A DNA stretch of 64,000 nucleotides from Alphaproteobacteria bacterium (GTDB lineage Bacteria > Pseudomonadota > Alphaproteobacteria > Geminicoccales > Geminicoccaceae). Below the pieces are notes generated by a model. It saw only the letters and a list, made by a program, of their open reading frames with translations. It was not told where the DNA came from and did not search any database. Shown here in pieces: positions 18,848 to 35,416 of the stretch. Location of the stretch: positions 1 through 64,000 of the forward strand of contig JALSGP010000013.1 of assembly GCA_026982705.1 (NCBI GenBank), given 5' to 3'. Within the stretch, counting starts at the first letter, position 1, and each line of letters starts with the position of its first letter. The translations under genes were made by a program, and so were the position numbers.

Positions 18848-19246
18848 TCACACCCCGAGCCGGCGATGGAGACGGGCGTCCTGGGTCCGGAAATGTTCGA
18901 CGAACCAGTCGCGCACGCGCCGTGCCAGCTCCTCGCGGGCGTGGTCGTACTCGCCGCGCGCGGCCCTGTCCATGATCTCGCAGATCTCGTCGAGCAGCGC
19001 CTCGTGCTCGGCCTTGTGCTCGGCATAGGCGTCGTAGCCGGCGCGGCGCATGATCGCCTCCTCGAGGGCGAAATGGGCGGCGATCTTCGCGAACACCTCG
19101 CCGAGGAAGGCCTCGATCTCCTCGCGCGAGGGATCGGCCGACAGCCGGTCGGCCAGCTCGTTGAGGATGTCCACGAGCTCGCGATGCTCGTGGTCCACGT
19201 CGGGAATCCCCGTCTCGAACTCGGGACGCCATTCTATGAGGGACAT
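18848..19246 (-). CDS. Bacteriohemerythrin
   Basis: This 132-residue four-helix protein carries a di-iron site that binds O2 or NO. The ligand pattern is visible as HEHRELVDILNEL, AHFALEEAIMRRAGYDAYAEH, KAEHEALLDEI and the late WFVEHFRTQDARL. The start WRPEFETGIPDVDHEHREL is typical of single-domain bacteriohemerythrins. Its 5' end overlaps the preceding unknown gene by 13 bases, so the two are probably co-translated. In this operon it may scavenge, sense or deliver NO; that role is an inference. Confidence 0.93.
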   Translation of the reverse strand: MSLIEWRPEFETGIPDVDHEHRELVDILNELADRLSADPSREEIEAFLGEVFAKIAAHFALEEAIMRRAGYDAYAEHKAEHEALLDEICEIMDRAARGEYDHAREELARRVRDWFVEHFRTQDARLHRRLGV

Positions 19247-19767
19247 CCGGGTCTGGCCTCCAGATTGTGGAACAGGAACCCACCCTTGTCGGCCTTGAAG
19301 TCGATGCCCAGCCGCCCCCGCGGTGGCAGCATCACCGTTACCTCCCGTTCCCAGGCGAAGACATCCTCGCGGCCGCGGTCCTCGAGACGGGCGAGGAGGC
19401 AGTGGGCACCGGCCGGCACGTCGAACTTGGCGTAGACCCGCGACGGGCCGTCGCCCGAGAGTCCGGTGGGGGGCAGCCATGCGTCGTAGAGAATCCGGCC
19501 GTCCAACCGCAGTTGCACCCGCACCGGCCGGCGCTCGCGCCGGCAGGTGCTGGGCCGGCGTTCCGACGGCGGCAGACGGCGGATCTCCTCATAGCTGAGG
19601 CGGCGACAGGCCTCCACCCGGGCGCCGCCGTGGACCAGCGCCAGCACCAGCCGCGCCCGGTCCGGCGGGAAGTTGTGCCAGACGGGATTCTGGGCGAACC
19701 AGCCCACGCCGGCGGCGGCGAGGGCATAGACCAGGCCCTGTCCGAGCCAGCGCAGCACCTCAGCCAT
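19234..19767 (-). CDS. Unknown membrane-anchored protein of the NO-reductase operon
   Basis: I do not recognise this 177-residue protein. It has one N-terminal membrane helix (about residues 5-25, LGQGLVYALAAAGVGWFAQN), which suggests a mostly periplasmic body. The body contains cysteines near residues 53, 75 and 123, a basic middle part and a predicted beta-rich C-terminus (DVPAGAHCLLARLEDRG to GRLGIDFKADKGG). The GRLGIDFKADKGGFLF end looks conserved enough to be a family signature. Its start overlaps the end of the cytochrome b fusion gene by 8 bases, and its end overlaps the hemerythrin gene. The tight placement argues for a part in assembling or partnering the reductase. Confidence 0.75.
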   Translation of the reverse strand: MAEVLRWLGQGLVYALAAAGVGWFAQNPVWHNFPPDRARLVLALVHGGARVEACRRLSYEEIRRLPPSERRPSTCRRERRPVRVQLRLDGRILYDAWLPPTGLSGDGPSRVYAKFDVPAGAHCLLARLEDRGREDVFAWEREVTVMLPPRGRLGIDFKADKGGFLFHNLEARPGCPS

Positions 19768-21325
19768 CGGCGGTCTCCACGGCACGGCTCACGGGCGCCG
19801 GTGCCACCGGCGGCGTCTCGCCCAGCGCCGCCAGCGCCCGGCGGAAAGCGGCGATCTCCGCCTCCAGCCGGGCCCGCCCCAGCGGTCCCGCCCACACGGT
19901 GCGCACCCGCTCGTCCGGCACCCGCCGCCGCAGCCGCGGATCGCGCCGGCGGGCAAGGCGCGCCTCGGTCCAGGCCTGGCCGAAGCGGTGGAGGCAGGAT
20001 CCGGGCGCACAGCCGGTGATCACCACCCCGTCGGCGAGATCGCGCGAGAGCACGTAGTCCACGAACACCGGCGGCAACTGGCCGGCGCAGGTGACGGTGA
20101 CGGCGGCCACCGCCGGTCCGCCGAGACCGGTGAGATCCACGCCCGGCTCGCAGCCGAAGACCATCACCCGCGGCCGTTCCACCAGCCGCGCGGCGGCGGC
20201 GTGGACCCGCTCCCGCAGCGCGCGGATGGTGGCATCGGGCAGATCGATCCCCGGCGACAGCTCGGCCCGCCGGCGGAAGGGCATGGCGGTGGGGCAGGCG
20301 CCGGCGCAGAGGCCGCAGGCGACGCACAAGGACGGGTCCACCCGCGGCTCGCGGGCGAAGGGGCGACCGTCGCTGCGCATCACCATGGTGATGGCGTTGT
20401 AGGGACAGTCGGCGAAGCAACGCGCACAGCCGTTGCAGTTGGCGAGGTCCACCCGTGCCGGCCGGCGGCGGCGCATGGGCGGCAGCCAGGGGACGGAGAG
20501 GAAGAGGAACAGGAGCACGAGGGAGGCGCTCCAGGTCACCGGCCCCGGCAGCTTCTCGTAGAAGGGATAGAGGGGCAGGTAGAACCAGTCGAGGCCGAGG
20601 TCGGCGGGCACCCGTCCGGGGTCGGCCGGCCCCTGGCTGGTGGCGGGATGGACCAGCGCCAGCACCAGCAGCGAGACCAGCACGCCCACGGCGAGACCGC
20701 GGGGCGGGTGGATGCGCGGGCGGGTGATGCGCTGCAGGTGCACCCACAGCACGATGAGGGCGACGAGGGGGACGGCGATGTGGAGGAAGATCATCAGCGT
20801 GAAGAAACGGTCGTTGAGGTGCTCCACGCTGAGGAAGTTGCGGGCGATGGGCTCGCCGAAGATGCCCGCCGCATCGAGCCACTCGGAGGTGACCAGGGCC
20901 ACGTAGAAGGCGAGCCGGTCCCAGACCAGCCAGTAGCCGGTGATGCCCGAGACGTAGATCATCACCATCACCGGCACGCCCGTCACCCAACTGAACCAGC
21001 GCGCACCCCGGCAGCGATCCAGCGCCCACTCGCGGACCATGTGGAGCATCATCACCACCACCATGCCGTCGGAAGCGTAGCGGTGGAGGCTGCGCATGAT
21101 GCCGGCCGCGTACCACTGGTCGACTGTCATGTATTCCACCGAGCGATATGCTTGGAGGATACCCGTATCGAAGAAAATGTACACGTAGATGCCGCTGATC
21201 ACCACGATCCAGTAAAAGAAGAATCCGAGCGCGCCAAGGTTCAGCAGTGGATTCCACGCCGGCGGGAACACCCGCGAGAGGACCTCTTCCGCCGCGGCGA
21301 AGAGCTTCCGCAGCCCGCGCTTCAC
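19760..21325 (-). CDS. Cytochrome b / two-[4Fe-4S] ferredoxin / MvhD-like fusion protein
   Basis: This 521-residue protein fuses three redox modules. Residues 1-280 resemble cytochrome b of bc complexes: four haem-ligand histidines in two helices at 81/95 and 182/196 with the canonical 13-residue spacing, and LDWFYLPLYP where cytochrome b has its PEWY-type Qo motif. Residues 290-350 hold two [4Fe-4S] motifs (C297, C300, C303, C307 and C334, C337, C340, C344). Residues 385-450 resemble the MvhD/HdrA-associated iron-sulfur subunit, with cysteines at 392, 413, 439 and 444. The GTG start follows GGAGG and overlaps the SCO stop as GTGA. Context suggests it moves electrons between the quinone pool or an iron-sulfur donor and the NO reductase. 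The direction is unknown. Confidence 0.9.
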   Translation of the reverse strand: MKRGLRKLFAAAEEVLSRVFPPAWNPLLNLGALGFFFYWIVVISGIYVYIFFDTGILQAYRSVEYMTVDQWYAAGIMRSLHRYASDGMVVVMMLHMVREWALDRCRGARWFSWVTGVPVMVMIYVSGITGYWLVWDRLAFYVALVTSEWLDAAGIFGEPIARNFLSVEHLNDRFFTLMIFLHIAVPLVALIVLWVHLQRITRPRIHPPRGLAVGVLVSLLVLALVHPATSQGPADPGRVPADLGLDWFYLPLYPFYEKLPGPVTWSASLVLLFLFLSVPWLPPMRRRRPARVDLANCNGCARCFADCPYNAITMVMRSDGRPFAREPRVDPSLCVACGLCAGACPTAMPFRRRAELSPGIDLPDATIRALRERVHAAAARLVERPRVMVFGCEPGVDLTGLGGPAVAAVTVTCAGQLPPVFVDYVLSRDLADGVVITGCAPGSCLHRFGQAWTEARLARRRDPRLRRRVPDERVRTVWAGPLGRARLEAEIAAFRRALAALGETPPVAPAPVSRAVETADG

Positions 21326-22146
21326 GAAAGACCTCCGGTGGTGGAACGACGGTGCCCGCCGGCCCGACGCCACTCCCGCCACAGGACCGTGGCCACCAGG
21401 GCGAGGGAGGCGGCGCCGATGGCGAGACCGATGAAGAGGGAATAGTCGAAATAGTAACGTCCGCTGGCGGGATCGTAGACGGTGCACCAGAGGCGGATGC
21501 GGTCGACGAGGTCGCCGAGGTCGCGGACGGGGCGGTCGCGGCCCAGCACCACGTCCTTGAGGGGTTCCACGATCTGCGGCGGGCTGAAGACGTCGCCGTG
21601 GATCTGGCGGACGATGCGGCCATCGGCGTCCACCAGCGTCACCTGGGCCAGGTGCTGGAAGCCGCCGGCCGAGGGCAGGAAGGTGAAGCCCACCGCCTCG
21701 GTCAGCGCCGTGACGGTGGCGGGATCGCCGGCGAGGAAGTGCCAGTCCGGATCCCTCACGCCCTGCCGGCGGGCGAAGGCGCGCATGGCGGCGGGATCGT
21801 CGCGCGCCACATCGAATCCCACCACCACCACGGCGAAGCGTCCCGGTCCCAGATTGGCGTGGGCATCGGCGACGATGGGGGCGAGGTTCTGGACGAGGGT
21901 GGGGCAGACGCTGCTGCAGGCGGTGTAGACGAAGGTGAGAAGGTAGGGTCTGCCGCGCAGTTGGGTGAGGCGGAAGGGCCGGCCGTCGGCGTCACGGAAG
22001 GCGAGATCCGGGACGAGGCGGCCGATGGCGGCACGGCTGCGGTCGAGGGCCCGCCGGAGGGGATCGTCCGGCTCTGCCCGCGCGGCCACGGTCAGGAGGA
22101 CCCCCACCGCCATCAGCACGGGCAGGAGAGCGCGACGCCCGCGCAC
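21322..22146 (-). CDS. SCO1/SenC-family copper chaperone
   Basis: This 274-residue thioredoxin-fold protein has the copper-binding motif TACSSVCP near residue 80 and a downstream histidine in GFQHLAQVTLVD. SCO proteins deliver copper to, or reduce, the CuA site of oxidase subunit II. It starts with a signal-like hydrophobic segment (LLPVLMAVGVLLTVAARA) and, unusually for SCO, ends with a second membrane helix near residue 245 (LFIGLAIGAASLALVATVLW). It lies in the same run as the CuA-containing subunit, which is its likely client. It starts with GTG right after ctaB and overlaps the next gene by GTGA. Confidence 0.93.
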   Translation of the reverse strand: MRGRRALLPVLMAVGVLLTVAARAEPDDPLRRALDRSRAAIGRLVPDLAFRDADGRPFRLTQLRGRPYLLTFVYTACSSVCPTLVQNLAPIVADAHANLGPGRFAVVVVGFDVARDDPAAMRAFARRQGVRDPDWHFLAGDPATVTALTEAVGFTFLPSAGGFQHLAQVTLVDADGRIVRQIHGDVFSPPQIVEPLKDVVLGRDRPVRDLGDLVDRIRLWCTVYDPASGRYYFDYSLFIGLAIGAASLALVATVLWREWRRAGGHRRSTTGGLS

Positions 22147-22147
22147 C

Positions 22148-23017
22148 TCACACCCCCTCCGCCAGCAGCCGGTCGGCCACGGCGCCGCCCAGCAGCAGGA
22201 CCAGTTGGACCAGGGAGGCGAGGAAGGTGCGCAGCGCCTTTCGTCGATCGGGATCGCGCCCGAGGCGCACGCTCTCGATCAGGAACACGGTACCGCCCGC
22301 CAGCGCGGCCGCCAGATAGACGGGGCCGGCGCGGCCGAGGGTCGGCAGCAGCGAGAGGGCCACCAGCGCCACCACGTGGGCGAGGATCAGCGCGGCGCAA
22401 CGGCGGCGGCCCACCACCACCGGCAGCATGGGTACGCCGGCGGCGGCGTAGTCCCGCTCCACCGCCATGGCCAGGCTCCAGAAATGGGGCGGCGTCCAGA
22501 GGAACAGCACCACCGCCAGCACCGCCGCCTCGAAGCCGAGACCGCCCGCGGCGCCGCCCGCGAGGACGGCGAAGGAGCCGGCGAGCCCGCCCACCACGAT
22601 GTTGAGGGGCGTGCGCCGCTTGAGCCAGAGGGTGTAGACGACGCTGTAGGTGAAGGCACCGGCGAACACGAAGAGTGCCGGACCGGCGCCGGCGAGCATG
22701 CCGGCCCACGCCACCGCCGCCAGGGCGAGGAGGGTGAAGGCGGCCGGCCAGAGGGGATGGGCGGACAGCCGGCCGGCGGCGAAGGGTCGGTGGCGGGTGC
22801 GCGCCATGCGCCGGTCGAGGTCGCGTTCGGCATAGTGGTTGAGGGCGCCGGCGGCGCCCGAGGCGAGGAACACGGCGAACAGCAGCCCCGCCATCGTCCC
22901 GGCCGGTGGCAGCGGGCCGGTGGCGAGGGCGAGGCCGCCGGCGGCCGCCAGCGCGATCGCCGCCCCGATGCGCGGTTTGAGGAGGGTCAGCAGGTCGCGC
23001 AGGACGACCGCCGGCAT
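22148..23017 (-). CDS. ctaB: Protohaem IX farnesyltransferase (haem O synthase)
   Basis: This 289-residue UbiA-family membrane enzyme attaches a prenyl tail to protohaem. It has both aspartate-rich signatures, NHYAERDLDRRMARTRHRP near residue 60 and PPHFWSLAMAVERDYAAAG near residue 175, and about eight hydrophobic helices. A dedicated copy inside a NO-reductase operon suggests that the reductase uses a prenylated haem (haem O-like) in at least one site. No ctaA (haem A synthase) is present nearby. The gene sits 12 bases after the subunit I stop. Confidence 0.95.
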   Translation of the reverse strand: MPAVVLRDLLTLLKPRIGAAIALAAAGGLALATGPLPPAGTMAGLLFAVFLASGAAGALNHYAERDLDRRMARTRHRPFAAGRLSAHPLWPAAFTLLALAAVAWAGMLAGAGPALFVFAGAFTYSVVYTLWLKRRTPLNIVVGGLAGSFAVLAGGAAGGLGFEAAVLAVVLFLWTPPHFWSLAMAVERDYAAAGVPMLPVVVGRRRCAALILAHVVALVALSLLPTLGRAGPVYLAAALAGGTVFLIESVRLGRDPDRRKALRTFLASLVQLVLLLGGAVADRLLAEGV

Positions 23018-23029: not shown

Positions 23030-24778
23030 TCAGGAGATGGGCCAGAGTTCGGAGAGGTATTTCCAGTTGACGAAGTAGTAGAGGGCGAAGGCCACGAAGA
23101 AGACTCCCACCAGCACGTAGGTTCCGGGCAGGTGGACCAGCCCCTCGCCGCCGTGACGGCCCACCTGGGCGGACCCCCCGGCCTCCGCCACCCGCGCCGG
23201 CATCGGCCCGAGGGCCGCGAGGGCGTTCTCCTCCGTCACCTTCTCGCCGAACAGCACGGTCCCGACGGTGACGAGGACGTAGAGAATGCCCCCCACCGTC
23301 GCGAGGAGGGCGAAGAGGCCGTTGAGACCCAGCATCAGATAGGCGGCGGGCTGGAAATCGAAGGAGAGGATGGCATCGGAGAGGGTGATGTCCCAGTGTC
23401 GCCGCGGCACGCCGAGGGTACCGGCGCCGAGCATGAACAGGGAGATGCCGGCGGCACCGATGCCGAAGAGATAGGGCTGCCACTTGGCGAGGGTCGGCCA
23501 GATCACCCTGCGGCGGAAGATCAGCGGCAGCACCAGATAGGTGAGGGCCATGAAGGCCAGGGTGGTGCCCGCCACCACCGTGCCGTGGAAGTGCCCCGGC
23601 ACGTAGAGGGTGTTGTGCATCATGATGTTGAGCTGTTCGGTGCCCAGCACCACGCCGGAGATGCCGCCGATGAAGCCGAACATGACCAGGGAGAGGAACA
23701 TGCCGGCGAAAGCCGGATTGTCCCACGGCGCCTTGCGCAGCCACTCGAACATCCCGTGGACGTATCCGTTGCGCCGCTGTGCCGCCTCGATGGAGCCGGG
23801 CACGGTCATGCCGTGGATCATGGAGCCCAGCACGGCGAGATAGAGGGCGTAGGAGGTGTTGAAGACCTTCCACTCGGCCGAGAGACCCGGCTCCACCAGC
23901 AGGTGGTGGGCGCAGGCGAGCTGGAGGAAGAGGATGTAGAGGAAGAAGGCGGTGCGGCTGACCTTCTCCGACAGCGGCTTGGCGCCCAGTAGGATGGCGG
24001 CGATGGCGTACCACACCGCCACGTGGGCGGAGACGTTGATCTGCTGGGAGCTGTGGCCCATGCCCCACCAGACGAGCTTGTACATCAGCGTGTCGATGTG
24101 GCCGATGTAGCCGAGCGACCACAGCCAGGTGGGGATGAGGATGATGGCGCCGGAGGCGATGGTGAACACGGCGATGATGGCCGCGGTGATGGCGCCGAAG
24201 GTGACGAGGGGGACCGAGCCCTCGTAGGTCCGCTCCTCACGGGCGATCACCAGCGTGCCGAAGAAGACCGCGCAGCCGACGAGCGCCCCCACCGCGAAGA
24301 GGATGAGCCCCAGATAGAAGTTGGGGGATGCCTGCATGGGGACGTAGGAGGTGAACATCACGCTCGAATCGCCCTGCAGGACCGCCCAGTCGGTGAGCAG
24401 CGCCCCCATCACCATGAGCCCGAATCCCGCCCAGGCGAGCCGGGGCGTGGCGAGCCGGCAGTTGAGCAGCACCGCCGAGGCGAAGTAGAGGATCGCGATC
24501 TCGAAGAAGATGATCCAGAAGAGCAGTACGTTGAGGCCGTGCAGCGTCAGGACCTGGTAGAAGGCCTCCGAATCCAGCAAATGCACCGCCGGCCAGCGTG
24601 TCAGCGCCACCAGCAGGCCCATGAGACCGCCGATGGCGAGGAACACGACGGCCGCCACCGCATTGGCCTTGATCAGGCGTTCGGCCGCCAGATCCACCCT
24701 GAGCCGGGTCACCGGGCAGGTGCGGAAGCGGGCCGCGATCCCGCCGATGATCCCGAGTTCACCGGATGCCGTGGCCAT
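23030..24778 (-). CDS. Heme-copper NO reductase catalytic subunit (eNOR-like)
   Basis: This 582-residue polytopic protein is a heme-copper superfamily subunit I. The six metal-ligand histidines can be placed: H80 (low-spin haem), H242, H291 and H292 (active-site metal), H396 and H398 (haems). In oxygen-reducing enzymes the residues after the first metal ligand are H-P-E-V-Y. Here they are H242-S-S-Q-Q246, so the cross-linked tyrosine is replaced by glutamine. That loss is expected for NO reductases, and a glutamine is, as I recall, characteristic of the eNOR class. It also lacks the cNOR/qNOR glutamate pattern near the binuclear site. With a CuA subunit II, NnrS, hemerythrin and Dnr-type control, NO reduction to N2O is the most likely reaction. 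Confidence 0.88.
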   Translation of the reverse strand: MATASGELGIIGGIAARFRTCPVTRLRVDLAAERLIKANAVAAVVFLAIGGLMGLLVALTRWPAVHLLDSEAFYQVLTLHGLNVLLFWIIFFEIAILYFASAVLLNCRLATPRLAWAGFGLMVMGALLTDWAVLQGDSSVMFTSYVPMQASPNFYLGLILFAVGALVGCAVFFGTLVIAREERTYEGSVPLVTFGAITAAIIAVFTIASGAIILIPTWLWSLGYIGHIDTLMYKLVWWGMGHSSQQINVSAHVAVWYAIAAILLGAKPLSEKVSRTAFFLYILFLQLACAHHLLVEPGLSAEWKVFNTSYALYLAVLGSMIHGMTVPGSIEAAQRRNGYVHGMFEWLRKAPWDNPAFAGMFLSLVMFGFIGGISGVVLGTEQLNIMMHNTLYVPGHFHGTVVAGTTLAFMALTYLVLPLIFRRRVIWPTLAKWQPYLFGIGAAGISLFMLGAGTLGVPRRHWDITLSDAILSFDFQPAAYLMLGLNGLFALLATVGGILYVLVTVGTVLFGEKVTEENALAALGPMPARVAEAGGSAQVGRHGGEGLVHLPGTYVLVGVFFVAFALYYFVNWKYLSELWPIS

Positions 24779-24781: not shown

Positions 24782-25336
24782 TCACCTCCCCGCCCCGGAC
24801 TCGACGACGCGGATGCGCCCGGTCATGGTATGATGACCGGCACCGCAGTATTCGTTGCACACCACGCTGAACACCCCCGTCTCGGTGGGCGTGATGGTGA
24901 GCACGTGCTCGTAGCCCGGGTGCACCTGGATGTTGATGTTGACCGGCTGGAGCGAGAAGCCGTGCTGCCAGTCCGCCGAGGACAGGTGCAGCCGGTAGCT
25001 CTGGCCCTTCTCGAGCTGCAGGACCGGCCAGAACTCCCACAGACGCGCCAGCATGTAGACGTCGCTGCCGGGCGGCGGCGCCACCACCGGCACCCCCGTG
25101 TCCCCCTCCTCGCCGACCTTGTACTTCTCCACGAAGGATTCGACCTTCGCGACGAAATCATCCGGCTTCACCCGATACGTTTCGGTCGAGAGATTCTGAT
25201 TTCCGTTGATGTGCCAATAAATCATCATGAAAAACATGAACAGCCCCCACAGAAAGGCGATGAAAATCCACAGGAGTTCACCCCGCGCCACGGGCTCGTT
25301 CCACCAGATCCGCACTTCGGGCGATCGTACCGCCAT
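24782..25336 (-). CDS. CuA-containing subunit II of the NO reductase
   Basis: This 184-residue protein has one N-terminal membrane helix (about 21-41) and a periplasmic cupredoxin domain. The CuA ligands are intact: H125 (DWQHGFSL) and C160, C164, H168 and M171 in CNEYCGAGHHTMTG. It is shorter than aa3 oxidase subunit II, having one helix instead of two, like ba3-type subunits. CuA accepts electrons from a periplasmic donor and passes them to subunit I, whose ATG follows 3 bases after this stop. Canonical cNOR uses a haem c subunit instead, which supports a separate class. Confidence 0.92.
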   Translation of the reverse strand: MAVRSPEVRIWWNEPVARGELLWIFIAFLWGLFMFFMMIYWHINGNQNLSTETYRVKPDDFVAKVESFVEKYKVGEEGDTGVPVVAPPPGSDVYMLARLWEFWPVLQLEKGQSYRLHLSSADWQHGFSLQPVNINIQVHPGYEHVLTITPTETGVFSVVCNEYCGAGHHTMTGRIRVVESGAGR

Positions 25337-25570: not shown

Positions 25571-25584
25571 TTGATCGCGGTCAA
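25571..25584. promoter_or_regulatory. Crp/Fnr-type (Dnr/Nnr) box before the NO-reductase operon
   Basis: TTGATCGCGGTCAA is a near-perfect TTGAy-N4-rTCAA palindrome. Its centre is about 76 bases upstream of the first ATG (25501), overlapping the end of nnrS. Two close variants occur at 26857 and 37268. Such sites bind NO- or oxygen-responsive Crp/Fnr regulators of denitrification. A class II position (-41.5) would put the transcript start near 25536. Confidence 0.75.
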
Positions 25585-26801
25585 GCGGGACCGGCCGCGC
25601 CGGTGGCCGGGGGTCGGTCGGCCCGCGGGGCCGTCAGCAGGGGGCCGTAGCGGAGGGCGAAGAGGAGATAGGCGCCGCCCCAGGCGGCCGCCGCCAGCGC
25701 CAGCAATGAGGTACGGTCGGCGGCGAGGGGCACCAGCAGTCGCAGCAGCGCGCCCGTCACCACCAGGGCGTAGATCACCACCGTGGCGGCATCGGCGGTG
25801 AGGGCGCGGCCGGTGTGGCCGAGCGAGGCGCGGGTCATGACCGCCAGCGTCGTGGTGCCGATGGCGCCGGTGGTGAAGGCGTGGAGGGTGGTGGCGGGAT
25901 CGGGGCCGAGGCCGGCCAGCGCGAGCCCGTGCAGCACCGCCCCCAAGGGCAGCCAAGCGTAGGCGAGATGGAGCACCGACACCAGCGGCTCGGCGAGGGT
26001 GCGGTGGCCCTGCCAGCGCAGCAGCCGGGCCGCGTGGAGGAAACCCGCCACCAGGAACAGCACCCCCACCGGCCGCGCGAGCGGCGCCGCCACCCAGGTG
26101 GCGAGGACGAGCGCCCACACGGCGAGGGTCGCCGCATCCAGGGGGCCGAAGGGAGCCGGCAGCGTCCGCGGTCCGAGGCGGACCATCCAGTTGCGGGTGA
26201 AGGCGGGGACGATGCGGCCGCCGATCAGCGCCAGCAGCAGCAGGATCACGGCGAGGCCGAGCCGGTCGCCGAGGGCGCCGGTGGGAAGGTCCAGCACCGG
26301 CTCCGCCCAGGACAGGACGGCCCCCGTCACGAACAGCGCCACCAGCGCCACCACCGGCCGATTGCGGTGGTTGCCGGCACCGATCACCGCCCGTGCCACC
26401 CAGGCCAGCACGCCGCCGAGGAAGGTCAGTTCGGCGAGGGCCGCGAGCGGGACCAGGGCGGCCCCGCCCGCCAGTCCCAGCAGGCGGGCGGCGAGCCAGG
26501 CGAGCAGCAACAGGAGCAGCGGGCGGCCGCTCAGCGGCGAGGTGCCGGTCCAGCTCGGCACCGCCGTCAGCAGGAAGCCGGCGAGGATGGCGCCGACGCC
26601 GCCGAAGAGGGTCTCGTGGCGGTGCCAGGCGAGGGGATCGAGGGCGAAGTGGGGCGGTACCGCCACCGCCAGCGTCCAGATCCAGACGAAAAGACTCGTC
26701 GGCAGCCACAGCGCCGCGGCCAGGAAGAACGGGCGGAAGCCGCAGGAGAGAAAGGGCGTCACCCCCCTCCCTCCGGCACCGGATGGGGCCCTCGCCGTCA
26801 T
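25581..26801 (-). CDS. nnrS: NnrS family haem-copper membrane protein
   Basis: This 406-residue protein has about twelve hydrophobic helices and NnrS signatures: LSCGFRPFFLAAALW at the N-terminus, WHRHETLFGGVGAILAGFLL, GGRIVPAFTRNW, and LHAFTTGAIGTTTLAVMTRASLGH in the C-terminal half. NnrS proteins bind haem and copper and relieve nitrosative stress, often in denitrifiers. The ATG at 26801 follows GGGAG and lies 62 bases from the centre of a Dnr-type box shared with divergent apbE. Its stop codon lies inside the box that precedes the NO-reductase operon. Confidence 0.95.
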   Translation of the reverse strand: MTARAPSGAGGRGVTPFLSCGFRPFFLAAALWLPTSLFVWIWTLAVAVPPHFALDPLAWHRHETLFGGVGAILAGFLLTAVPSWTGTSPLSGRPLLLLLLAWLAARLLGLAGGAALVPLAALAELTFLGGVLAWVARAVIGAGNHRNRPVVALVALFVTGAVLSWAEPVLDLPTGALGDRLGLAVILLLLALIGGRIVPAFTRNWMVRLGPRTLPAPFGPLDAATLAVWALVLATWVAAPLARPVGVLFLVAGFLHAARLLRWQGHRTLAEPLVSVLHLAYAWLPLGAVLHGLALAGLGPDPATTLHAFTTGAIGTTTLAVMTRASLGHTGRALTADAATVVIYALVVTGALLRLLVPLAADRTSLLALAAAAWGGAYLLFALRYGPLLTAPRADRPPATGAAGPA

Positions 26802-26856
26802 GACGCTCCCGTCGTGGCGATCCCGCTCCAGCTTCCGCGCCGGGGAAGGCCCCTCC

Positions 26857-26870
26857 TTGACCGCCGTCAA
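26857..26870. promoter_or_regulatory. Crp/Fnr-type box between nnrS and apbE
   Basis: TTGACCGCCGTCAA is a palindromic box centred at 26863.5. It lies 62.5 bases from the ATG of nnrS on one side and 62.5 bases from the proposed ATG of apbE on the other. One dimer could therefore serve both promoters. It differs from the box at 37268 by a single base. Confidence 0.72.
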
Positions 26871-26925
26871 GGTGACGGGCGAGGATGGTGCGGCAGGAGA
26901 TGCGGAGAGGCGGGGTACGACGGGG

Positions 26926-27942
26926 ATGCGACGGCGGCGCGCGATGGGGCTGATGGTGGCGACGGCGGCGGTGCTCGCCACCGGCCGACCGCGGGCGGTG
27001 CCGGTCCACCGCTTCAGCACCGCCGCCCTCGGTGCGCGCGTCTCCATCGCCCTCTACGGCCTCGACGACGCGGAGGCCCGCCGGCTCGCCGGGTCGCTGG
27101 TGGACGAACTGCTGCGCCTCGAGGCCATCTTCACCCTCCACCGGCCCGATGCGCCGCTGGTGCGCCTCGCCCGCGAGGGACGGCTCGCCCTGCCGCCGCC
27201 GGAGCTGCTGGAGGCCCTCGCCCTCGCCCGCCTGCTGTACGAGGAGAGCGAGGGCGCCTTTGATCCCACCGTCCAGCCGCTCTACACCACCCTCGCCCGG
27301 CTGGCCGGGGCCGGCGAACTGGACGATCCGCTGCGGGTCGCCCACGCCCTGGACGGGGCGTGGGGGGCCGTGGGCTTCGGTCGCGTGGACGTGACGCCGA
27401 CGGCCGTCCGCCTGCCGCCCGATGCCGCCCTCACCCTCGATGGCATCGCCCAGGGCGTCATCACCGATCGACTCGCGGCGTCGCTGCAGCGGCAGGGACT
27501 CGGCTTCGCGCTGCTGGACTGCGGCGAACTGCGGGCGCTGGGACCGCCGCCGGGCGACGAGGCCTTCGCGGTGGCGCTGCGCAGCGGCGGGCGACTGCGG
27601 CTCAGGGACGAGGCCCTCGCCGTCTCGGCACCGGCCGCCACCCGCTTCGACGTGGCCGGCCGCTGGCACCACATCCTCGATCCTCGCACCGGTCGCCCCG
27701 CCCGGGGGATCCGCCGGGCGGTGGTGCGGGCGGAGACCGCCGCCCTCGCCGACGGTCTCGCCACCGCCCTCTGCGTGCTGGAACCGGAGGCGGGCCGTGC
27801 CCTCGCCGCCCGCTTCGGCGCCTGGGCGCGGATCGAGACGGTGGACGGCCGGATCTACGAGACCGGGACGGCGAGGCGGTGGCGGGTGGCGGCGACGATG
27901 AGATCGGCCATCTCCGGTCGCAGGCCCACCGGACCCGTGTAG
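26926..27942 (+). CDS. apbE: FAD:protein FMN transferase (ApbE)
   Basis: This 338-residue exported protein resembles ApbE, which uses FAD to attach FMN covalently to threonine in target proteins. Family features are STAALGARVSIALYG, LTLDGIAQGVITDRLA, and WHHILDPRTGRPARGIRRAVV near the C-terminus. A hydrophobic signal follows RRRRAMGLM. Its likely target is the FMN-binding domain of NirI at 37345, which has the GATVSS acceptor motif. The start at ATG 26926 follows GGAGAGGCGGGG. The 3' end overlaps the convergent chelatase gene by 88 bases. Confidence 0.92.
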   Translation: MRRRRAMGLMVATAAVLATGRPRAVPVHRFSTAALGARVSIALYGLDDAEARRLAGSLVDELLRLEAIFTLHRPDAPLVRLAREGRLALPPPELLEALALARLLYEESEGAFDPTVQPLYTTLARLAGAGELDDPLRVAHALDGAWGAVGFGRVDVTPTAVRLPPDAALTLDGIAQGVITDRLAASLQRQGLGFALLDCGELRALGPPPGDEAFAVALRSGGRLRLRDEALAVSAPAATRFDVAGRWHHILDPRTGRPARGIRRAVVRAETAALADGLATALCVLEPEAGRALAARFGAWARIETVDGRIYETGTARRWRVAATMRSAISGRRPTGPV

Positions 27943-28544
27943 CGGGCCCGTTCCCCCAGCGGCGCCAGCGCCGCCGCCACGTCGTCGCGGCCGTGGGGTC
28001 CGGCGTCCACGAAGGCGCCCAGCGCCAGCACCCGTCCCTTTCCGAAGCGGGCCGCCCGCTCGGCCAGCCGCGGTGGCTGCTCCAGCCACAGCGTCTCCAC
28101 CGCGAGATCCGGGAAGCGGTACCGGAGGCGCACCGCCTGGGTCCGGAGGGCGACGGTGCTCTCGGCGTGCCGTTCGGTGCCGTGGCCCACCAGCCAGAGA
28201 TGGGTGAAGCCGTCCTCTCCGGCCCGCACCTCACGCACCACCGTCGCGAAGAGATCGGCGCAGGCGGGGAGCGTGCCCACCGGAGGCACCATGCGCAGGT
28301 CGCCGCGGCCGAGGGCGGTCAGCCGCGCGCGCACACGGTCGTGGATCCAGCCGCGGGCGAGCAGCAGCGGGACCGCCACCACCGGCCCCGGGAGGTCGTC
28401 CAGCGCCCGCTCCAGCGACGGCTCGCCGCGCAGACAGCCCACCGCCACCAGCCGGAACAGGCCACGGCGGGCGATGCGGGCGGCATGGACCGCGGCGATC
28501 CCCGGCCCGCCGCGGACCCCGTGGGTGACGATCAGGAGATCCAC
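27855..28544 (-). CDS. CbiX/SirB-like sirohydrochlorin chelatase in the nir cluster
   Basis: This 229-residue protein belongs to the CbiX-type class II chelatases. Two half motifs are present: LIVTHG at the N-terminus, and LWLVGHGTERHAESTVALR in the second half. The family inserts cobalt, nickel or iron into sirohydrochlorin. Because it is the last gene of the haem d1 cluster, 7 bases after nirN, iron insertion on the way to sirohaem, the haem d1 precursor, is the most sensible role. A separate, longer CbiX sits in the cobalamin cluster at 57086. No precorrin-2 dehydrogenase is seen beside it. Confidence 0.8.
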   Translation of the reverse strand: MDLLIVTHGVRGGPGIAAVHAARIARRGLFRLVAVGCLRGEPSLERALDDLPGPVVAVPLLLARGWIHDRVRARLTALGRGDLRMVPPVGTLPACADLFATVVREVRAGEDGFTHLWLVGHGTERHAESTVALRTQAVRLRYRFPDLAVETLWLEQPPRLAERAARFGKGRVLALGAFVDAGPHGRDDVAAALAPLGERARYTGPVGLRPEMADLIVAATRHRLAVPVS

Positions 28545-28551
28545 CGCCGCC

Positions 28552-30054
28552 TCAATGGCTGGTCCCCTCCTCGAAGCGGATCTTGTTGCCGACGTTGTAC
28601 TTACCGGAGGGATGACGGGCGGGGATGCGCGCCACCTCGACGAGGGTGCGGTCGTCGTAGACCACCACCGCGCCGTCCTCCTCCATGATGCTGACGAGAG
28701 CGTGGCGGCCCTCGCGATCGAACTCGATGTGGGCGGACCGTCGCCCCGGCGCCGGCCGCAGGGTGGCCACGATGCCGAGGGTGCGCTTGTCGATCACGTG
28801 GACGGCATCGCGGTGGGGTCCCGCGAACACGTCCACCCACACGTGGGGGCTCGACCGGTGGCTGCGGGCGAAGAAGCCGGGGCCGAGGGTGGGGATGCGC
28901 GCCACCACGCGCCAGTCCTCCATGTCCACCACCGTCACCTCCGGCCGGGTGAGGTTGGGAGTGATCAGCAGGCGCCGTCCGTCCCGCACGAAGGTGACGC
29001 CGGAGGCGAGATGGGGGAAGCCCTCGATGGGGAGGCGCGCCACCACGCGCCCATCCCCGAGCGCCACCACCCAGGCGCCGCGGGAGCTGCGCGAGGAGCC
29101 CACCAGCAGCCGGTAGGCGGGATCGAAGAGGACGTCGTCGAGGGGCTCCGGCAGCGGGATGCGACGCAGGCGGCGGCGGGCCGGATCGGCGGCCGGCACC
29201 AGCTCCCAGGCCTCGGCCACGTCGCGCAGCGCCACGATCACGCTGCCCCGCGGCGGTGCCTGGTAGACGGCGGCGACCCGCGAGACGGTGCCGTCGGCGC
29301 CGCGGGCCGGGATCACCTCCACCGGCCGGTAGTCCACCGCATCGAGCACCACCACCGCCCGCGGCAGGGTGTCGGCCACCACCAGGAAGCGGCCGTCGGG
29401 AGTCAGCGCGATGTTGCGGGTGGCGATGCCGGCCCGCACCTTCACCACCGGCTGCAGCCCCCAGAGATCGTAGCGCAGCAGCCAGCCGTCGCGCGAGGCG
29501 AAATGGACGAAGCGGCCGTCGCGGGTGAACTTGGGACCGCCGTGGAGGGCCCGCGGGGTGGGAAAGCGGGCGAGGCGCACGAAGCGGTCGCCGTCCAGCA
29601 GGCTCGCGTGGTGATCGCCCTTCTCCACCACCAGGAAGAGATCGAGCGGATCCGCCGCGAAGCGCGGGCGATCCGGCAGCGCCTCCTCGGCCACGAAGCG
29701 CCGGTGCGAGGCGGCGATCTCCGCCATGCCGAAGCGGGGCGGCTTGTCGGGCGGTCGGCGCAGATAGCGGACGAGATCGCGGATCTCCTCGGCTTCCAGC
29801 AGATCGCCGAAGGCGGGCATGCGGGTCGCGGGGAGCCCCTCGCGGACGATGCGGACGATGTCCGCCTCCGACCGCCGCCCCAGCGTCTGGGGCAGGAGCG
29901 GCGGGCCGCTCGCTCCGAGCCGGTCGGGCCCGTGACAGACGGCGCAGAGATCGCGATAGAGGACGGCCGCCTCGCGCGCGGCGGCGGGCGCGGTCGCCAG
30001 GACCGAAAGCAGGAACAGCAGGGGGGCGAGGTGCGATCCGGCGCGCTCACGCAT
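28552..30054 (-). CDS. nirN: NirN, dihydro-haem d1 dehydrogenase
   Basis: This 500-residue periplasmic protein combines an N-terminal cytochrome c domain (CAVCHGPDRLGASG near residue 40) and an eight-bladed d1-type propeller. A signal peptide (LAPLLFLLSVLATAPAAA) precedes it. NirN introduces the acrylate double bond in the last step of haem d1 synthesis. Retained haem c and shorter length distinguish it from NirS, and the cytochrome domain from NirF. It overlaps the end of nirJ by 8 bases. Confidence 0.93.
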   Translation of the reverse strand: MRERAGSHLAPLLFLLSVLATAPAAAREAAVLYRDLCAVCHGPDRLGASGPPLLPQTLGRRSEADIVRIVREGLPATRMPAFGDLLEAEEIRDLVRYLRRPPDKPPRFGMAEIAASHRRFVAEEALPDRPRFAADPLDLFLVVEKGDHHASLLDGDRFVRLARFPTPRALHGGPKFTRDGRFVHFASRDGWLLRYDLWGLQPVVKVRAGIATRNIALTPDGRFLVVADTLPRAVVVLDAVDYRPVEVIPARGADGTVSRVAAVYQAPPRGSVIVALRDVAEAWELVPAADPARRRLRRIPLPEPLDDVLFDPAYRLLVGSSRSSRGAWVVALGDGRVVARLPIEGFPHLASGVTFVRDGRRLLITPNLTRPEVTVVDMEDWRVVARIPTLGPGFFARSHRSSPHVWVDVFAGPHRDAVHVIDKRTLGIVATLRPAPGRRSAHIEFDREGRHALVSIMEEDGAVVVYDDRTLVEVARIPARHPSGKYNVGNKIRFEEGTSH

Positions 30055-31201
30055 GGGCCGGCTCCGCCATCCCCAGTTCCGCGTCGCTCAGATAGCAGGC
30101 CGGGTCCTCGGCCCAGGGATCGCCGCGGGTCTCCAGCGCGCGGATGCGGGTGTTGCCGTTGCAGATGGCGAGCATGGGACAGCGGCCGCAGCGCCCCCGC
30201 ACCGGCCGCGGACGGCGGCGCAGGCCGGCGAGGATCGGATCCGTCTCGTCGCGCCAGATCTCGGAGAAGGGCCGCTCGCGGACATTGCCCAGGGAGTGGC
30301 GCCACCAGAAGGTGTCGGGATGGACGTTGCCGAGATTGTCGATGTTGGCGACGCCGACGCCGCTGGCGTTGCCGCCCCAGGCCTCGAGATGGGCGCGGAC
30401 GTGGGCGGCGCGGTCGGGATGGTGTCGTTCCACCCAGCGCAAGAAATAGACGGCGTCGGCGTCGTTGTTGCCGGTGACGAACTCGGTGGACCGTCCCTCC
30501 CGCAGATGGCGCCAGCAGCGGGCGACGAGGGTGTCCACCACCCGGCGGGTGGTACGGTGGAGGGCGTCGCGGTCGCGGTGACGGCGGCCGCGGCCGGCGT
30601 AGACGAAATGGGAGAGATAGAACCTGTCGATGCCCTCGGCCTCCACGAGGTCGAGGAGCGGCTCGAGACTGCCCACGTTCTGCTCGGTGACGGTGAAACG
30701 CACGCCCACCTTGACGCCGCGCGCCCGCAGCCGCCGGAGGGCGGCGAGGGAAGCCTCGAAACAGCCGGGCACGCGACGAAAACGGTCGTGGACCGGGCCG
30801 ATGCCGTCGAGGGAGATGCCCACGTAGTCGTAGCCGACGGCGGCGATGCGGTCGGCGGTGGCCTCGTCGATCCGCGCGCCGTTGGTGGAGAGGGCCACGT
30901 AGAAGCCCAGCTCGCGGGCGCGGGCGGAGATGGCGAAGATGTCCGATCGCAACAGCGGCTCACCGCCGGAGAGGACGAGGGCCGGCACGCCGAAGGCGCG
31001 CAGGTCGTCCATCACCCGGAAGACCTCGTCGGTGGTGAGTTCGCCCGGGAAGTCCACGTCCGCCGACAGCGAATAGCAGTGGATGCAGTTGAGGTTGCAG
31101 CGGCGGATCAGGTTCCAGATCACCACCGGCCCGCGCGGACGCGCCCGGCGCACCGGCGTCGGCTCCAGCAGCTCGCGCATGTAACGGCTCAGTCGGAACA
31201 C
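30047..31201 (-). CDS. nirJ: Haem d1 biosynthesis radical SAM protein NirJ
   Basis: This 384-residue radical SAM enzyme removes the propionate chains from didecarboxysirohaem. The cluster motif is RRCNLNCIHCYSLSAD near residue 35, followed by LVLSGGEPLLR. A C-terminal cysteine cluster (GRCGRCPMLAICNGNTRIRA) resembles SPASM-like extensions. The GTG at 31201 gives VFRLSRYMRELL, the usual NirJ N-terminus, and overlaps nirH by 13 bases. Confidence 0.95.
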   Translation of the reverse strand: MFRLSRYMRELLEPTPVRRARPRGPVVIWNLIRRCNLNCIHCYSLSADVDFPGELTTDEVFRVMDDLRAFGVPALVLSGGEPLLRSDIFAISARARELGFYVALSTNGARIDEATADRIAAVGYDYVGISLDGIGPVHDRFRRVPGCFEASLAALRRLRARGVKVGVRFTVTEQNVGSLEPLLDLVEAEGIDRFYLSHFVYAGRGRRHRDRDALHRTTRRVVDTLVARCWRHLREGRSTEFVTGNNDADAVYFLRWVERHHPDRAAHVRAHLEAWGGNASGVGVANIDNLGNVHPDTFWWRHSLGNVRERPFSEIWRDETDPILAGLRRRPRPVRGRCGRCPMLAICNGNTRIRALETRGDPWAEDPACYLSDAELGMAEPAHA

Positions 31202-31689
31202 GACGGATCCTCCCCCGCGGCGAGGCGGATGCCGGTCTTCTTGAGCACCCGCACGCTGTAGAGCACGTCGTGGCCGCGGCAGGCCTCGCCCATCAGTCCG
31301 GCGATCACCGCCACCTTCTCCTCCACCTCGGTGACGCTGCGGCCGTGGACCATGGCGAAGAGATTGTAGGGCCACACCGGCGGTCGCCGCGGCCGGCGAT
31401 AGCAGTGGCTGACGAAGTCGAGCGCGCCGACCCGCGCGCCCAGCTCGTCCACCCGCGCGTCGTCCACGTCCCACACGCTCATGCCGTTGGCGCGCAGTCC
31501 CAGACGGACGTGGTGGGGGACGGCGGCGATGCGGCGGACGGCGCCGCGCGCACGCATCGCCCGGAAGCGGGCCAGCACCTCCGCGACGGAGAGGCCGGTG
31601 GCCTCCGCCACCCGGTGGAAGGGCCGCACGTCCAAGGGCAGTCCCGCCTGGGTGGCGAGGACGAGCTGGCGGTCGCGCGGGTCGATCAT
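31189..31689 (-). CDS. nirH: Sirohaem decarboxylase subunit NirH
   Basis: This 166-residue AsnC/Lrp-fold protein belongs to the NirDLGH complex, which decarboxylates sirohaem to 12,18-didecarboxysirohaem. It has the NirL/NirH-type substrate segment VSHCYRRPRRPPVWPYNLFA and a helix-turn-helix-like N-terminus that no longer needs to bind DNA. The ATG overlaps the nirG stop as ATGA. Confidence 0.93.
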   Translation of the reverse strand: MIDPRDRQLVLATQAGLPLDVRPFHRVAEATGLSVAEVLARFRAMRARGAVRRIAAVPHHVRLGLRANGMSVWDVDDARVDELGARVGALDFVSHCYRRPRRPPVWPYNLFAMVHGRSVTEVEEKVAVIAGLMGEACRGHDVLYSVRVLKKTGIRLAAGEDPSCSD

Positions 31690-32132
31690 GGCGGCTCCGG
31701 AACGAATTCCAGGAAGTACTCGCGCTCCTTGGGCAGATCCAGCACCGCGAGCCCGGTCTCGCGCTCGATTGCGCGGATCACGGCGTCGATGCGCGCGCGG
31801 CTCTCCGCCGCCACCACGAACCACATGTTGAGGTGATGGGCCCGTTCGTAGTTGTGGGCCACCTCCGGATGGCGCCCCACCGCCGCCGCCACCGCCTCGA
31901 AACGCTCGGGCGGCACCGCCATGGCGCACAGCGTCACCGCCCCGCCCAGCTTCTCGATGTCGAAGAGGGGGCCGAAACGGGTGAGCAGCCCCTCCGCGAG
32001 CCAGCGGCGGATGCGCGCCACGATGGCCTCCTCGCTCGTGCCGAAGCGCTCGGCCAGTGCCCGGAAGGGCCGCTCCTCCGGCTCGATGCCGCGCAGCAGC
32101 GCGGCCAGCAGTTCACGGTCCCGGTCCGGCAT
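31686..32132 (-). CDS. nirG: Sirohaem decarboxylase subunit NirG
   Basis: This 148-residue member of the sirohaem decarboxylase complex has the NirD/NirG-type segment EVAHNYERAHHLNMWFVVAA. It differs from the CYRR-type NirL and NirH subunits. The alternation D-L-G-H in this operon preserves four separate subunits, whereas some denitrifiers fuse D and L. Its start overlaps the end of nirL by 20 bases. Confidence 0.93.
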   Translation of the reverse strand: MPDRDRELLAALLRGIEPEERPFRALAERFGTSEEAIVARIRRWLAEGLLTRFGPLFDIEKLGGAVTLCAMAVPPERFEAVAAAVGRHPEVAHNYERAHHLNMWFVVAAESRARIDAVIRAIERETGLAVLDLPKEREYFLEFVPEPP

Positions 32133-32625
32133 GGGCGGGCGCTCCCGGGGCGGAGAAGTAGCGGGCGCCGGTCTGCTTGAAACAGCGGCGGGAGAAGAGG
32201 ACGCGGCGCGGGCAGGACCGGAGGCCGGCGAGGCGGCTCGCCTCCTCGATCCGCTCCTCCACCGCCGCCCGCACGCGGCCGTGGATCATGCAGTAGAGGT
32301 TGTAGGGCCAGGCCGGATGGCGGCGGCGCCGGTAGCAGAGGGTGACGAAGGGCAGGGCCGCGAGCCGCAGGCCCGCCGCCCGCACCCGCACCTCCGGCAC
32401 GTCCCACACCACCATGGCGTTGGCGCGATAGCCGAGGCGGCGGTGGCGCACCACCAGCCCGAAGCGGCGCACCACGCCCCCATCCCGCAGCCGCCGCAGC
32501 CGCGCCATCACCTCCGCCTCCGGCAGACCCACCCGCGCGCCCAGCAGGGCATAGGGCCGGGGCACGAGGGGCAGTCCCCGTTCCAGCTCGGCCAGCAGGC
32601 GGCGGTCCGTCGCGCTCAGCTCCAC
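32113..32625 (-). CDS. nirL: Sirohaem decarboxylase subunit NirL
   Basis: This 170-residue AsnC-fold subunit carries VTLCYRRRRHPAWPYNLYCM, the NirL/NirH-type substrate motif. The GTG start (VELSATDRRLLAELERGL) overlaps the end of nirD by 10 bases. The C-terminus is slightly extended (APGAPAHAGPGP) and runs into the nirG start. Confidence 0.92.
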   Translation of the reverse strand: MELSATDRRLLAELERGLPLVPRPYALLGARVGLPEAEVMARLRRLRDGGVVRRFGLVVRHRRLGYRANAMVVWDVPEVRVRAAGLRLAALPFVTLCYRRRRHPAWPYNLYCMIHGRVRAAVEERIEEASRLAGLRSCPRRVLFSRRCFKQTGARYFSAPGAPAHAGPGP

Positions 32626-33074
32626 GACAGCGGGAACCCCAGATCCAGCCGGAAGGCCTCCACCAGCGGCAGCTCCACCACGGGGATGCCGGTCCGATCG
32701 GCGATGTCGTCCAGCACCGCCCGCAGCCGCGCAGGGGTGGGGGCGGTGACCACGAACCAGAGGTTGTAGGCGTCCTCGCGCTCGTAGTTGTGGTTGACCT
32801 CGGGATAGGCGGAGACCAGCGCCGCCACGCCCTCCAGCAGCTCCGGCGGCACCTTCATGGCGGCGAGGGTGCTGGCGCCGACGCGCCCCGGCTCCAGCAC
32901 CGCGCCCACTCGATCGACGATGCCCGCCTCCTGCAGCTCGCACAGGAGATCGAGCACCGCCGCCTCGTCGAGGCCGAGGCGCTCGCCGATCACCCGGAAG
33001 GGCCGCGGGTCCAGCGGAAAGTCGTGCTGGAACTCGTCCAGCAGCCGGCGGGTGGTGGGATCGAGACGTGCCAT
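32616..33074 (-). CDS. nirD: Sirohaem decarboxylase subunit NirD
   Basis: This 152-residue AsnC-fold subunit has the NirD/NirG-type motif EVNHNYEREDAYNLWFVVTA. The N-terminal helices (LDPTTRRLLDEFQHDFPLDP) are the family's helix-turn-helix remnant. It starts 11 bases after the nirF stop, within the same operon. Confidence 0.93.
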   Translation of the reverse strand: MARLDPTTRRLLDEFQHDFPLDPRPFRVIGERLGLDEAAVLDLLCELQEAGIVDRVGAVLEPGRVGASTLAAMKVPPELLEGVAALVSAYPEVNHNYEREDAYNLWFVVTAPTPARLRAVLDDIADRTGIPVVELPLVEAFRLDLGFPLSWS

Positions 33075-33085
33075 GGCCGCCCTCC

Positions 33086-34273
33086 TCAGAAGCCGATCCG
33101 CGCCGCGCGCGCGCTCGTGAAGATTCCGGAGGGCGTGCGGGCTTCGAACGCCTTGATCTGGGACAAGCGCGCGGTGTCGTAGACCACCACCCGGTCGGAA
33201 TCGCGGGCGGAGATCCAGACCTGGTCGCCGCGCGGCGTGAACTCCAGGTGCATCACCGCCCGGCCCGGTCGCAGCTCCGCCACCACCGCGAGGCGCGGCA
33301 CGTCGATCACCTGCACCACGTCGTTGCGGGGATGGGCGAAGTTGACCCACACCTGACGGCCGTCGGGCCGGGCCACGGCGAAGACCGGCTGCCCGTGGAC
33401 GGGAATGCGCGCCACCTCGCGGAAGTCGTCGCGGCGGTCCACCACCAGCAGCTCGAAGCGCCCCACCGCCGGCAGGAACAGCAGGTCTCCCGCCTGCGCC
33501 CAGCCCTCGAGATGGGGCATCTTGTAGACGGGCAGCGGCCGCTCGCCGCGGCCGTAGCCGGCGAGGATGCGCCGCGGCCGCGGTTCCTCCGCCCACAGAT
33601 CCAGCAGCACGAGACCGTCCTCGCCGAACAGCCCCACCACGTAATAGCGGCCGTCGGGCGTGACGAGGGCATCGTAGGGCATGCGGCCGATGCCCGGGAA
33701 GCGGCGCTGGTACGGGCGGGCGGGATCGGTGAGGTCGAGCAGGCGGATCTCGTCGCCGTCCAGGAGGGCGTAGGCGAAATGGCGGGGACCCCAGTCCTCG
33801 AGCCCCACCACCCGCGAGCGACCGCCGTCGGCCGTCCCGGCGGGAATGTCGGCCACGGGCGCGAGATCGGCGGCGGCGAAGACGCGCACGCCGCCCGGAT
33901 CGTAGTTGGCCACCGCCACCAGCGTGCCGTCGCCGGAGATGGCGCCGCCGATGGCGTTGCCCGCCTGGACGATGCGCGCCACCACCTCGCCGGTGAGCAG
34001 GTCCAGCTTGGTGAGACCGCCGTCGCGGCCGAAGAGGAAGGCGTAGCGCTGGTCGCGGGAGAAGACGGCGGCGGCGTGGGAGAGATCGCCCAGCCCCTCC
34101 ACCCGGCCGAGGACGGACGGGGTGGAGGTCTCAAAGCGCAGCACCGAGCCGTGGGCCCGCTCCACCACGAGGCCGAGATCGCCGGTCCCGCGGCAGGTGG
34201 CCCCGTCCCGCGCACGCGCCGGCCGCGCCAGCGGCCACAGCCAGGGCAGGGCGAGCAGATGACGGCGGATCAT
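33086..34273 (-). CDS. nirF: Haem d1 biosynthesis protein NirF
   Basis: This 395-residue d1-type beta-propeller protein is required for haem d1 synthesis. It lacks a cytochrome c domain, unlike NirS and NirN. It has a short N-terminal export signal (LLALPWLWPLARPARA) and propeller repeats such as GGAISGDGTLVAVANYDPGG and DALVTPDGRYYVVGLFGEDG. The ATG overlaps the nirC stop (ATGA). Confidence 0.93.
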   Translation of the reverse strand: MIRRHLLALPWLWPLARPARARDGATCRGTGDLGLVVERAHGSVLRFETSTPSVLGRVEGLGDLSHAAAVFSRDQRYAFLFGRDGGLTKLDLLTGEVVARIVQAGNAIGGAISGDGTLVAVANYDPGGVRVFAAADLAPVADIPAGTADGGRSRVVGLEDWGPRHFAYALLDGDEIRLLDLTDPARPYQRRFPGIGRMPYDALVTPDGRYYVVGLFGEDGLVLLDLWAEEPRPRRILAGYGRGERPLPVYKMPHLEGWAQAGDLLFLPAVGRFELLVVDRRDDFREVARIPVHGQPVFAVARPDGRQVWVNFAHPRNDVVQVIDVPRLAVVAELRPGRAVMHLEFTPRGDQVWISARDSDRVVVYDTARLSQIKAFEARTPSGIFTSARAARIGF

Positions 34274-35363: not shown

Positions 35364-35383
35364 GGGGGTGCTCCGCGGGATGC

Positions 35384-35402: not shown

Positions 35403-35416
35403 CGCCTCCTCCGCCA

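Follow-up and report, generated by a model that had tools for sequence, protein, structure and literature searches.

Why should a bacterial operon for nitric oxide (NO) reduction encode a cytochrome b that carries, in the same polypeptide, a dicluster ferredoxin and an MvhD domain, and in which direction would electrons pass through such a protein? The question arises from a stretch of 64,000 nucleotides (the window; positions 1 to 64,000 of contig JALSGP010000013.1, here C13) from an alphaproteobacterium of the Geminicoccaceae. A first-pass annotation had described a fusion of cytochrome b, two ferredoxin clusters and MvhD inside an NO-reductase operon. The single polypeptide was recovered here with every residue named at the time, and its neighbours were confirmed as reductase subunits II and I, CyoE, SCO, a protein of 177 residues that we call P177 and a hemerythrin.

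The fusion protein and its predicted topology

The fusion, which we call CBFD, has 521 amino acids and is encoded on the minus strand, with a GTG start at 21325 and a stop at 19760; a plus-strand frame over the same positions was rejected as a gene. Its parts are as follows.

19760..21325, minus strand: CBFD, a cytochrome b–dicluster ferredoxin–MvhD/FlpD fusion (sequence, Pfam, AlphaFold2, homologues)
20468..21298, minus strand: cytochrome b core with six transmembrane helices, residues 10-286 (Pfam, AlphaFold2, fold match, positive-inside pattern)
20576..20593, minus strand: L245-D-W-F-Y-L250, the putative equivalent of the PEWY Qo motif with Glu replaced by Asp, in the p-side loop between helices E and F
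20276..20458, minus strand: 2x[4Fe-4S] ferredoxin domain, residues 290-350, with eight cysteines (Pfam and conservation)
19811..20167, minus strand: MvhD/FlpD domain, residues 387-505, predicted to hold a [2Fe-2S] cluster (FlpD above the gathering cut-off; aligns to solved MvhD chains)

Pfam places Cytochrome_B at residues 18-200, Fer4_7 at 296-347 and FlpD at 404-502, the last with 41.6 bits against a cut-off of 22.3 and with its four cysteines present (C392/413/439/444). The haem ligands form two bis-histidine pairs (H81/H95 and H182/H196), and the ferredoxin cysteines are C297/300/303/307 and C334/337/340/344. The AlphaFold2 model has a mean pLDDT of 90.4, and residues 10-286 match bc1 cytochrome b over about 250-260 residues (VIA-align Z 20-24, rmsd mostly 2.3-3.9 Å). 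LDWFY aligns with the PEWY of b6f subunit IV and of plant cytochrome b, and the corresponding residues in CBFD homologues read LDW(F/Y)Y, again with Asp for Glu. Across the homologues, the distribution of Lys and Arg among the loops follows a positive-inside pattern with the N-terminus and iron–sulfur domains inside and the LDW loop outside; the N-terminus and the C-terminal domains are predicted to be cytoplasmic.

CBFD shares helices A-F, two bis-histidine haems and the cd1 region with the cytochrome b of bc1 and b6f complexes, and it has a PEWY-like motif. By contrast, the helices after F are replaced by the ferredoxin–MvhD module (or, in the variant CBFN described below, by an NAD(P)H-reductase module), the motif is LDW rather than PEWY, and the operon contains no gene for a Rieske protein, cytochrome c1 or cytochrome f. 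With the hydrogenase- or Hdr-linked MvhD/FlpD proteins it has in common the FlpD domain, the alignment to solved MvhD chains and the four conserved cysteines, whereas here the domain is part of one polypeptide with a bc1-type cytochrome b, the genome is that of a denitrifier with aerobic oxidases, and no HdrA match in it exceeds the NF040770 cut-off, the only matches being weak and confined to short stretches. HdrA is the usual partner of MvhD; an HdrABC partner for the CBFD domain was rejected, none having been found in the genome, in which CBFD is the sole FlpD gene at the level of a Pfam search.

The four haem histidines, the eight ferredoxin cysteines and D246/W247 are conserved in 100% of 130-131 homologues and the four FlpD cysteines in at least 98%, and Pfam found all three domain families in 83/83 members of a non-redundant set. 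Because the fusion recurs in more than 120 loci, it is neither a chance event nor an assembly artefact. Its closest named relatives come from Geminicoccaceae and other alphaproteobacterial genomes. The NCBIfam model for ExtP-type b cytochromes (NF040969) scores CBFD at 94.7 bits, below its cut-off of 290. Selenocysteine was rejected for the in-frame TGA codons seen in five distant homologues: they are ordinary stops at or near the C-terminus. Tandem duplicate CBFD genes occur in four loci (L169, L172, L174 and L175) of genomes of 1.2-1.9 Mb, where the two copies possibly form a heterodimer.

The operon, its reductase and its distribution

CBFD lies between SCO and P177 in an operon whose genes overlap or nearly touch, and denitrification genes adjoin this operon on the same strand (25581..37291, minus). 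The operon genes are given first, in gene order with CBFD omitted, followed by the adjoining genes.

24782..25336, minus strand: eNOR-like subunit II with CuA ligands (Pfam/NCBIfam and CuA motif)
23030..24778, minus strand: eNOR-like haem-copper subunit I with Gln in place of the cross-linked Tyr (Pfam and GHSSQQ motif)
22148..23017, minus strand: CyoE/CtaB haem O synthase (Pfam/NCBIfam)
21322..22146, minus strand: SCO1/SenC family protein (Pfam)
19234..19767, minus strand: P177, one transmembrane helix and a beta-sandwich domain predicted to be periplasmic
18848..19243, minus strand: hemerythrin-family protein, the final operon gene, present in 78 of the best 80 named loci
25581-27047, minus strand: NnrS (Pfam/NCBIfam)
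27855-28544, minus strand: CbiX-like protein (Pfam/NCBIfam)
28552-30054, minus strand: protein with cytochrome c and d1 domains (Pfam/NCBIfam)
30047-31474, minus strand: NirJ (Pfam/NCBIfam)
between NirJ and the d1-propeller gene, minus strand: nirD/L-like genes (sequence reading)
33086-34633, minus strand: d1-propeller protein (sequence reading)
before 35417, minus strand: SUMT-like gene (sequence reading)
35417-37291, minus strand: cytochrome c/d1-type NirS-like protein (sequence reading)

The type of NO reductase called eNOR, represented in Thermus, Thermomicrobium and Rhodothermus, is little known. A Gln in place of the oxidase Tyr in subunit I is its hallmark (PMC8756737), and subunit I of the CBFD operon has this Gln, within GHSSQQ. 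The pattern xxQQ is present in 103/106 subunit I sequences, the remaining three being unscored by the pattern, and the CuA motif C-x3-C-x3-H-x2-M in 104/105 subunit II sequences, 99 of which also have the upstream His. Judged by these motifs, the reductase of the CBFD operon is of the eNOR type. Haloarchaeal plasmid matches to subunit I were rejected as eNOR, the oxidase Tyr being kept (GHPVVY). Thermus and Thermomicrobium plasmids carry operons (46-47% identity, GHGAQQ) that resemble the CBFD operon in their CuA subunit II and Gln-for-Tyr subunit I but contain neither CBFD nor P177; since these eNORs manage with no CBFD nearby, CBFD is not essential for eNOR catalysis as such. The genome under study has three haem-copper subunit I genes, the eNOR type being represented only by the copy in the CBFD operon; the others are a strong match on contig C46 and one on C12 that reads as cbb3-type. 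No Rieske gene lies on C13: the four Rieske matches are all on other contigs, and one of them, on C42, adjoins a separate cytochrome b gene.

Two side observations concern the haem-copper subunits. The eNOR subunit I match of genome G031 (L130, G031:C20:14647-16347) contains one in-frame TAG. In eNOR operons of the order to which genome G695 belongs and of the small genomes with tandem CBFD genes, P177 or CBFD is followed by a second haem-copper-like subunit of about 460 amino acids that shares about 25% identity with eNOR subunit I (L173:5124-6512, minus; L174:11490-12869; L169:466-1908, minus).

The link between CBFD and eNOR extends well beyond this genome. Among the best 80 CBFD loci in a scan of named genomes, mostly from Alpha- and some from Gammaproteobacteria, the 72 with enough contig all have eNOR subunit I immediately upstream; in the other 8 the contig ends within about 2 kb. 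Three genome samples, with few genomes in common, gave the same picture, with matches to both proteins scattered over many families and with Fisher p values that ignore shared ancestry: NOR in 15, CBFD in 16 and both in 15 of 60 relatives (2e-13); 20, 21 and 20 of 337 genomes of the class (3e-31); and 30, 34 and 29 of 398 genomes of the phylum (8e-38). In four mismatch genomes (G003, G304, G467 and G488) the sequence ends in or near the operon, and in another (G421) NOR and SCO lie at the end of a contig and CBFD is missing. The first-pass annotation had proposed tabulating the fusion against the reductase; far from occurring mostly without the reductase genes, the architecture is linked to proteobacterial eNOR close to one-to-one. 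Phyla outside Pseudomonadota were covered through plasmids only. CBFD identities also correlate with those of subunit II, SCO and CyoE (r 0.72-0.80), but linked genes give such correlations trivially, and operon-wide co-divergence was therefore rejected as evidence.

Several genomes contain both CBFD and NOR on different contigs or at a distance from each other. Where CBFD and P177 lie away from the NOR operon, SCO and usually CyoE remain with NOR; in one such locus (L176), CBFD has as neighbours genes for a NirS-like cytochrome c/d1 protein, a small cytochrome c and a further d1 protein, together with nirDL-like genes. The whole eNOR–CBFD operon is found on a 165-kb plasmid of Defluviimonas sp. 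SAOS-178_SWC (L115, NZ_CP156080.1), which suggests horizontal spread, and also in Hyphomicrobium sp. CS1BSMeth3. In the Defluviimonas record, CBFD appears as 'cytochrome b N-terminal domain-containing protein' and P177 is a 'hypothetical protein', generic labels that make the system easy to overlook.

P177, already mentioned in the first-pass annotation as a 177-residue protein, is a near-constant companion of CBFD and directly follows it in 120/128 loci, including those where CBFD has left the NOR operon, and in several of the remaining 8 CBFD is the first gene of a tandem pair. The AlphaFold2 model of P177 (pLDDT 96.5) consists of one helix and a beta-sandwich domain, which is predicted to be periplasmic. 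No Pfam or NCBIfam family and no PDB match was found for it, Foldseek returned nothing at E below 0.001, and the VIA-align matches (Z up to 9) were to generic beta-sandwiches only. H46, R77, R79 and G102 are invariant in a set of 91 members, and C54 and C75 nearly so. A role as a redox protein, with the His and two Cys as a metal site, was considered and rejected, the cysteines being absent from two members in tandem-copy genomes (L169 and L174), where P177 follows the tandem CBFD genes.

Module exchange on a conserved cytochrome b

In genome G695, the slot after SCO is occupied by a 659-amino-acid protein, CBFN, in which a cytochrome b of the CBFD type is joined to Fer2, FAD-binding and NAD-binding domains. 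The best NCBIfam matches of its reductase half are BenC and MmoC, which oxidise NADH. CBFN shares the Fer2–FAD–NAD module with these oxygenase reductases, but they serve an oxygenase, whereas in CBFN the module is fused to a cytochrome b of six helices. In 16 CBFN sequences, which form a monophyletic group (support 0.999), the ligands of the haems and the D-W motif are kept, and P177 follows CBFN as it does CBFD.

CBFN loci (among them L173:8637-10616, minus, L210 and L223) lie in eNOR or nir clusters of the G695 order, a second order of proteobacteria. Across 200 genomes of this order, CBFN occurs in 19, eNOR in 19 and both in 18 (Fisher 2e-23), and CBFD and/or CBFN was found in 19/19 eNOR genomes sampled. 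Two genomes have CBFN alone in the NOR operon: in G742, a single contig, it occupies the CBFD position and no second cytochrome b match was found, and G811 is a draft. Most other genomes of the order carry CBFN in tandem with CBFD; two (G828 and G756) have CBFN in nir clusters and CBFD in NOR operons, one (G734) has CBFD and lacks CBFN, and three more (G835, G748 and G877) have CBFN, their NOR operons being interrupted by contig ends. The reductases to which the swapped module belongs oxidise NADH, so electrons most likely enter on the cytoplasmic side. FNR-type flavoproteins can also run towards NAD(P)+.

Proposed electron entry and its alternatives

On balance, our results make it somewhat likely that CBFD serves the eNOR respiratory chain as a dedicated module of electron entry, through which electrons probably pass from the cytoplasm to the breakdown of nitric oxide. 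The first-pass annotation had raised such an entry module as one possibility, and the replacement of the iron–sulfur half by an NAD(P)H reductase on the same cytochrome b supports it. For the direction of flow, the donor, the quinone step and the contact with subunit II or P177, we infer the following. The MvhD ([2Fe-2S]) and ferredoxin (2x[4Fe-4S]) domains would take low-potential electrons from a soluble cytoplasmic donor, for which a ferredoxin, an NAD(P)H enzyme or an MvhD partner are candidates, and pass them to haem bH of the Rieske-less, bc1-type cytochrome b. From there they could reduce quinone near the n-side, cross via haem bL to the p-side, or both. The acceptor on the p-side may be P177 together with the CuA subunit II, or a carrier in the periplasm that also serves cd1 nitrite reductase, and would then supply electrons for NO reduction. 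CBFD and CBFN genes outside the NOR operon adjoin cd1-type genes, which suggests that the output is a pool common to nitrite and NO reduction. The invariant DW motif, in turn, suggests quinone chemistry on the p-side; a conserved Qo-like motif would be superfluous in a simple conduit. This counts against electron entry, as do the lack of an HdrA match in this genome, the ability of FNR-type flavoproteins to run in reverse, and the eNORs of Thermus and Thermomicrobium plasmids.

Two variants differ in the fate of the quinol. CBFD may be a Rieske-less complex that merges a cytoplasmic dehydrogenase with complex III in one polypeptide plus P177, with quinone entry on the n-side, re-oxidation of quinol at the Qo-like site by the NOR CuA subunit or P177, and an input module exchangeable between lineages (ferredoxin–MvhD or NAD(P)H reductase); we consider this unlikely, but, if true, NO reduction would be energy-conserving without bc1. 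Slightly less probable is a ferredoxin or NAD(P)H:quinone reductase and nothing more, with quinone entry on the n-side, an ordinary bc1 complex and cytochrome c serving eNOR, and a vestigial Qo-like motif. The Rieske gene on C42, with its neighbouring cytochrome b gene, would fit such an arrangement, as would the lack of a Rieske substitute in the CBFD operon, yet a general enzyme need not track eNOR almost one-to-one, nor would a vestigial motif be expected to keep D246/W247 on the p-side in 100% of homologues.

The opposite direction of flow had also been envisioned, with quinol oxidation split, or coupled for energy, to a soluble iron–sulfur partner. In a Q-cycle-like bifurcation of this kind, quinol would be oxidised at the Qo-like site, one electron going to the NOR CuA as a stand-in for Rieske and the other via bL and bH to the ferredoxin and MvhD domains and on to a soluble low-potential acceptor. 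The invariance of both haem pairs and of the DW motif is consistent with it, and reduction of NAD(P)+ by the swapped module is conceivable in principle. MvhD domains, moreover, work with flavin bifurcation in Hdr complexes (PMC9012536). HdrA, however, was not found in this genome. Modules of the BenC/MmoC type are NADH oxidisers, and rough potentials make the scheme look energetically hard: with CuA as the only driving force, passing the ubisemiquinone electron on to ferredoxin or NAD+ would be unfavourable against the membrane potential. The module swap, the HdrA result and these rough thermodynamics together disfavour the split-quinol reading, which we regard as improbable. Equally doubtful, though a serious rival on account of SCO and P177, is a role in assembly, in which CBFD would carry electrons from the cytoplasm through the membrane and reduce Cu(II) or SCO thiols during CuA/CuB loading, with P177 as a periplasmic chaperone. 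CcoG is thought to pass cytoplasmic electrons for copper reduction in the case of cbb3 oxidases. Assembly would account for the strict linkage to eNOR, for the position of CBFD directly after SCO, and for a membrane-anchored beta-sandwich protein whose family conserves a His and, for the most part, two Cys. Yet two P177 relatives from tandem-copy genomes lack the Cys, a Pfam scan found no FixG/CcoG-type domain in CBFD or 82 homologues, two b haems and a conserved Qo-like motif would be superfluous, and CBFD with P177 parts from SCO and usually CyoE in some genomes, in L176 standing beside a nirS-like cluster.

Each part of CBFD is known. MvhD joins a membrane quinone or cytochrome b system to soluble carriers in Hdr/Qmo-type membrane systems, which use HdrE/NarI-type cytochromes. 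In these systems, and in the MvhD–HdrCBA–MetVF membrane chain proposed for Sporomusa ovata (PMC9430772), an example of the nearest parallels described, the components are separate subunits, whereas CBFD is one polypeptide tied to NO reduction. What appears undescribed is their combination, together with the almost obligatory link to eNOR, the accompanying P177 and the exchange of modules; no description of CBFD was found in the literature searched, where the electron source of eNOR is nowhere stated, and an earlier mention in Murali et al. 2024 (PNAS, eNOR diversity) is possible. Many proteobacteria may have a dedicated route by which cytoplasmic reductant supports NO reduction; if so, accounts of its energy yield and of N2O production would change, and the cytochrome b family would gain a new type.
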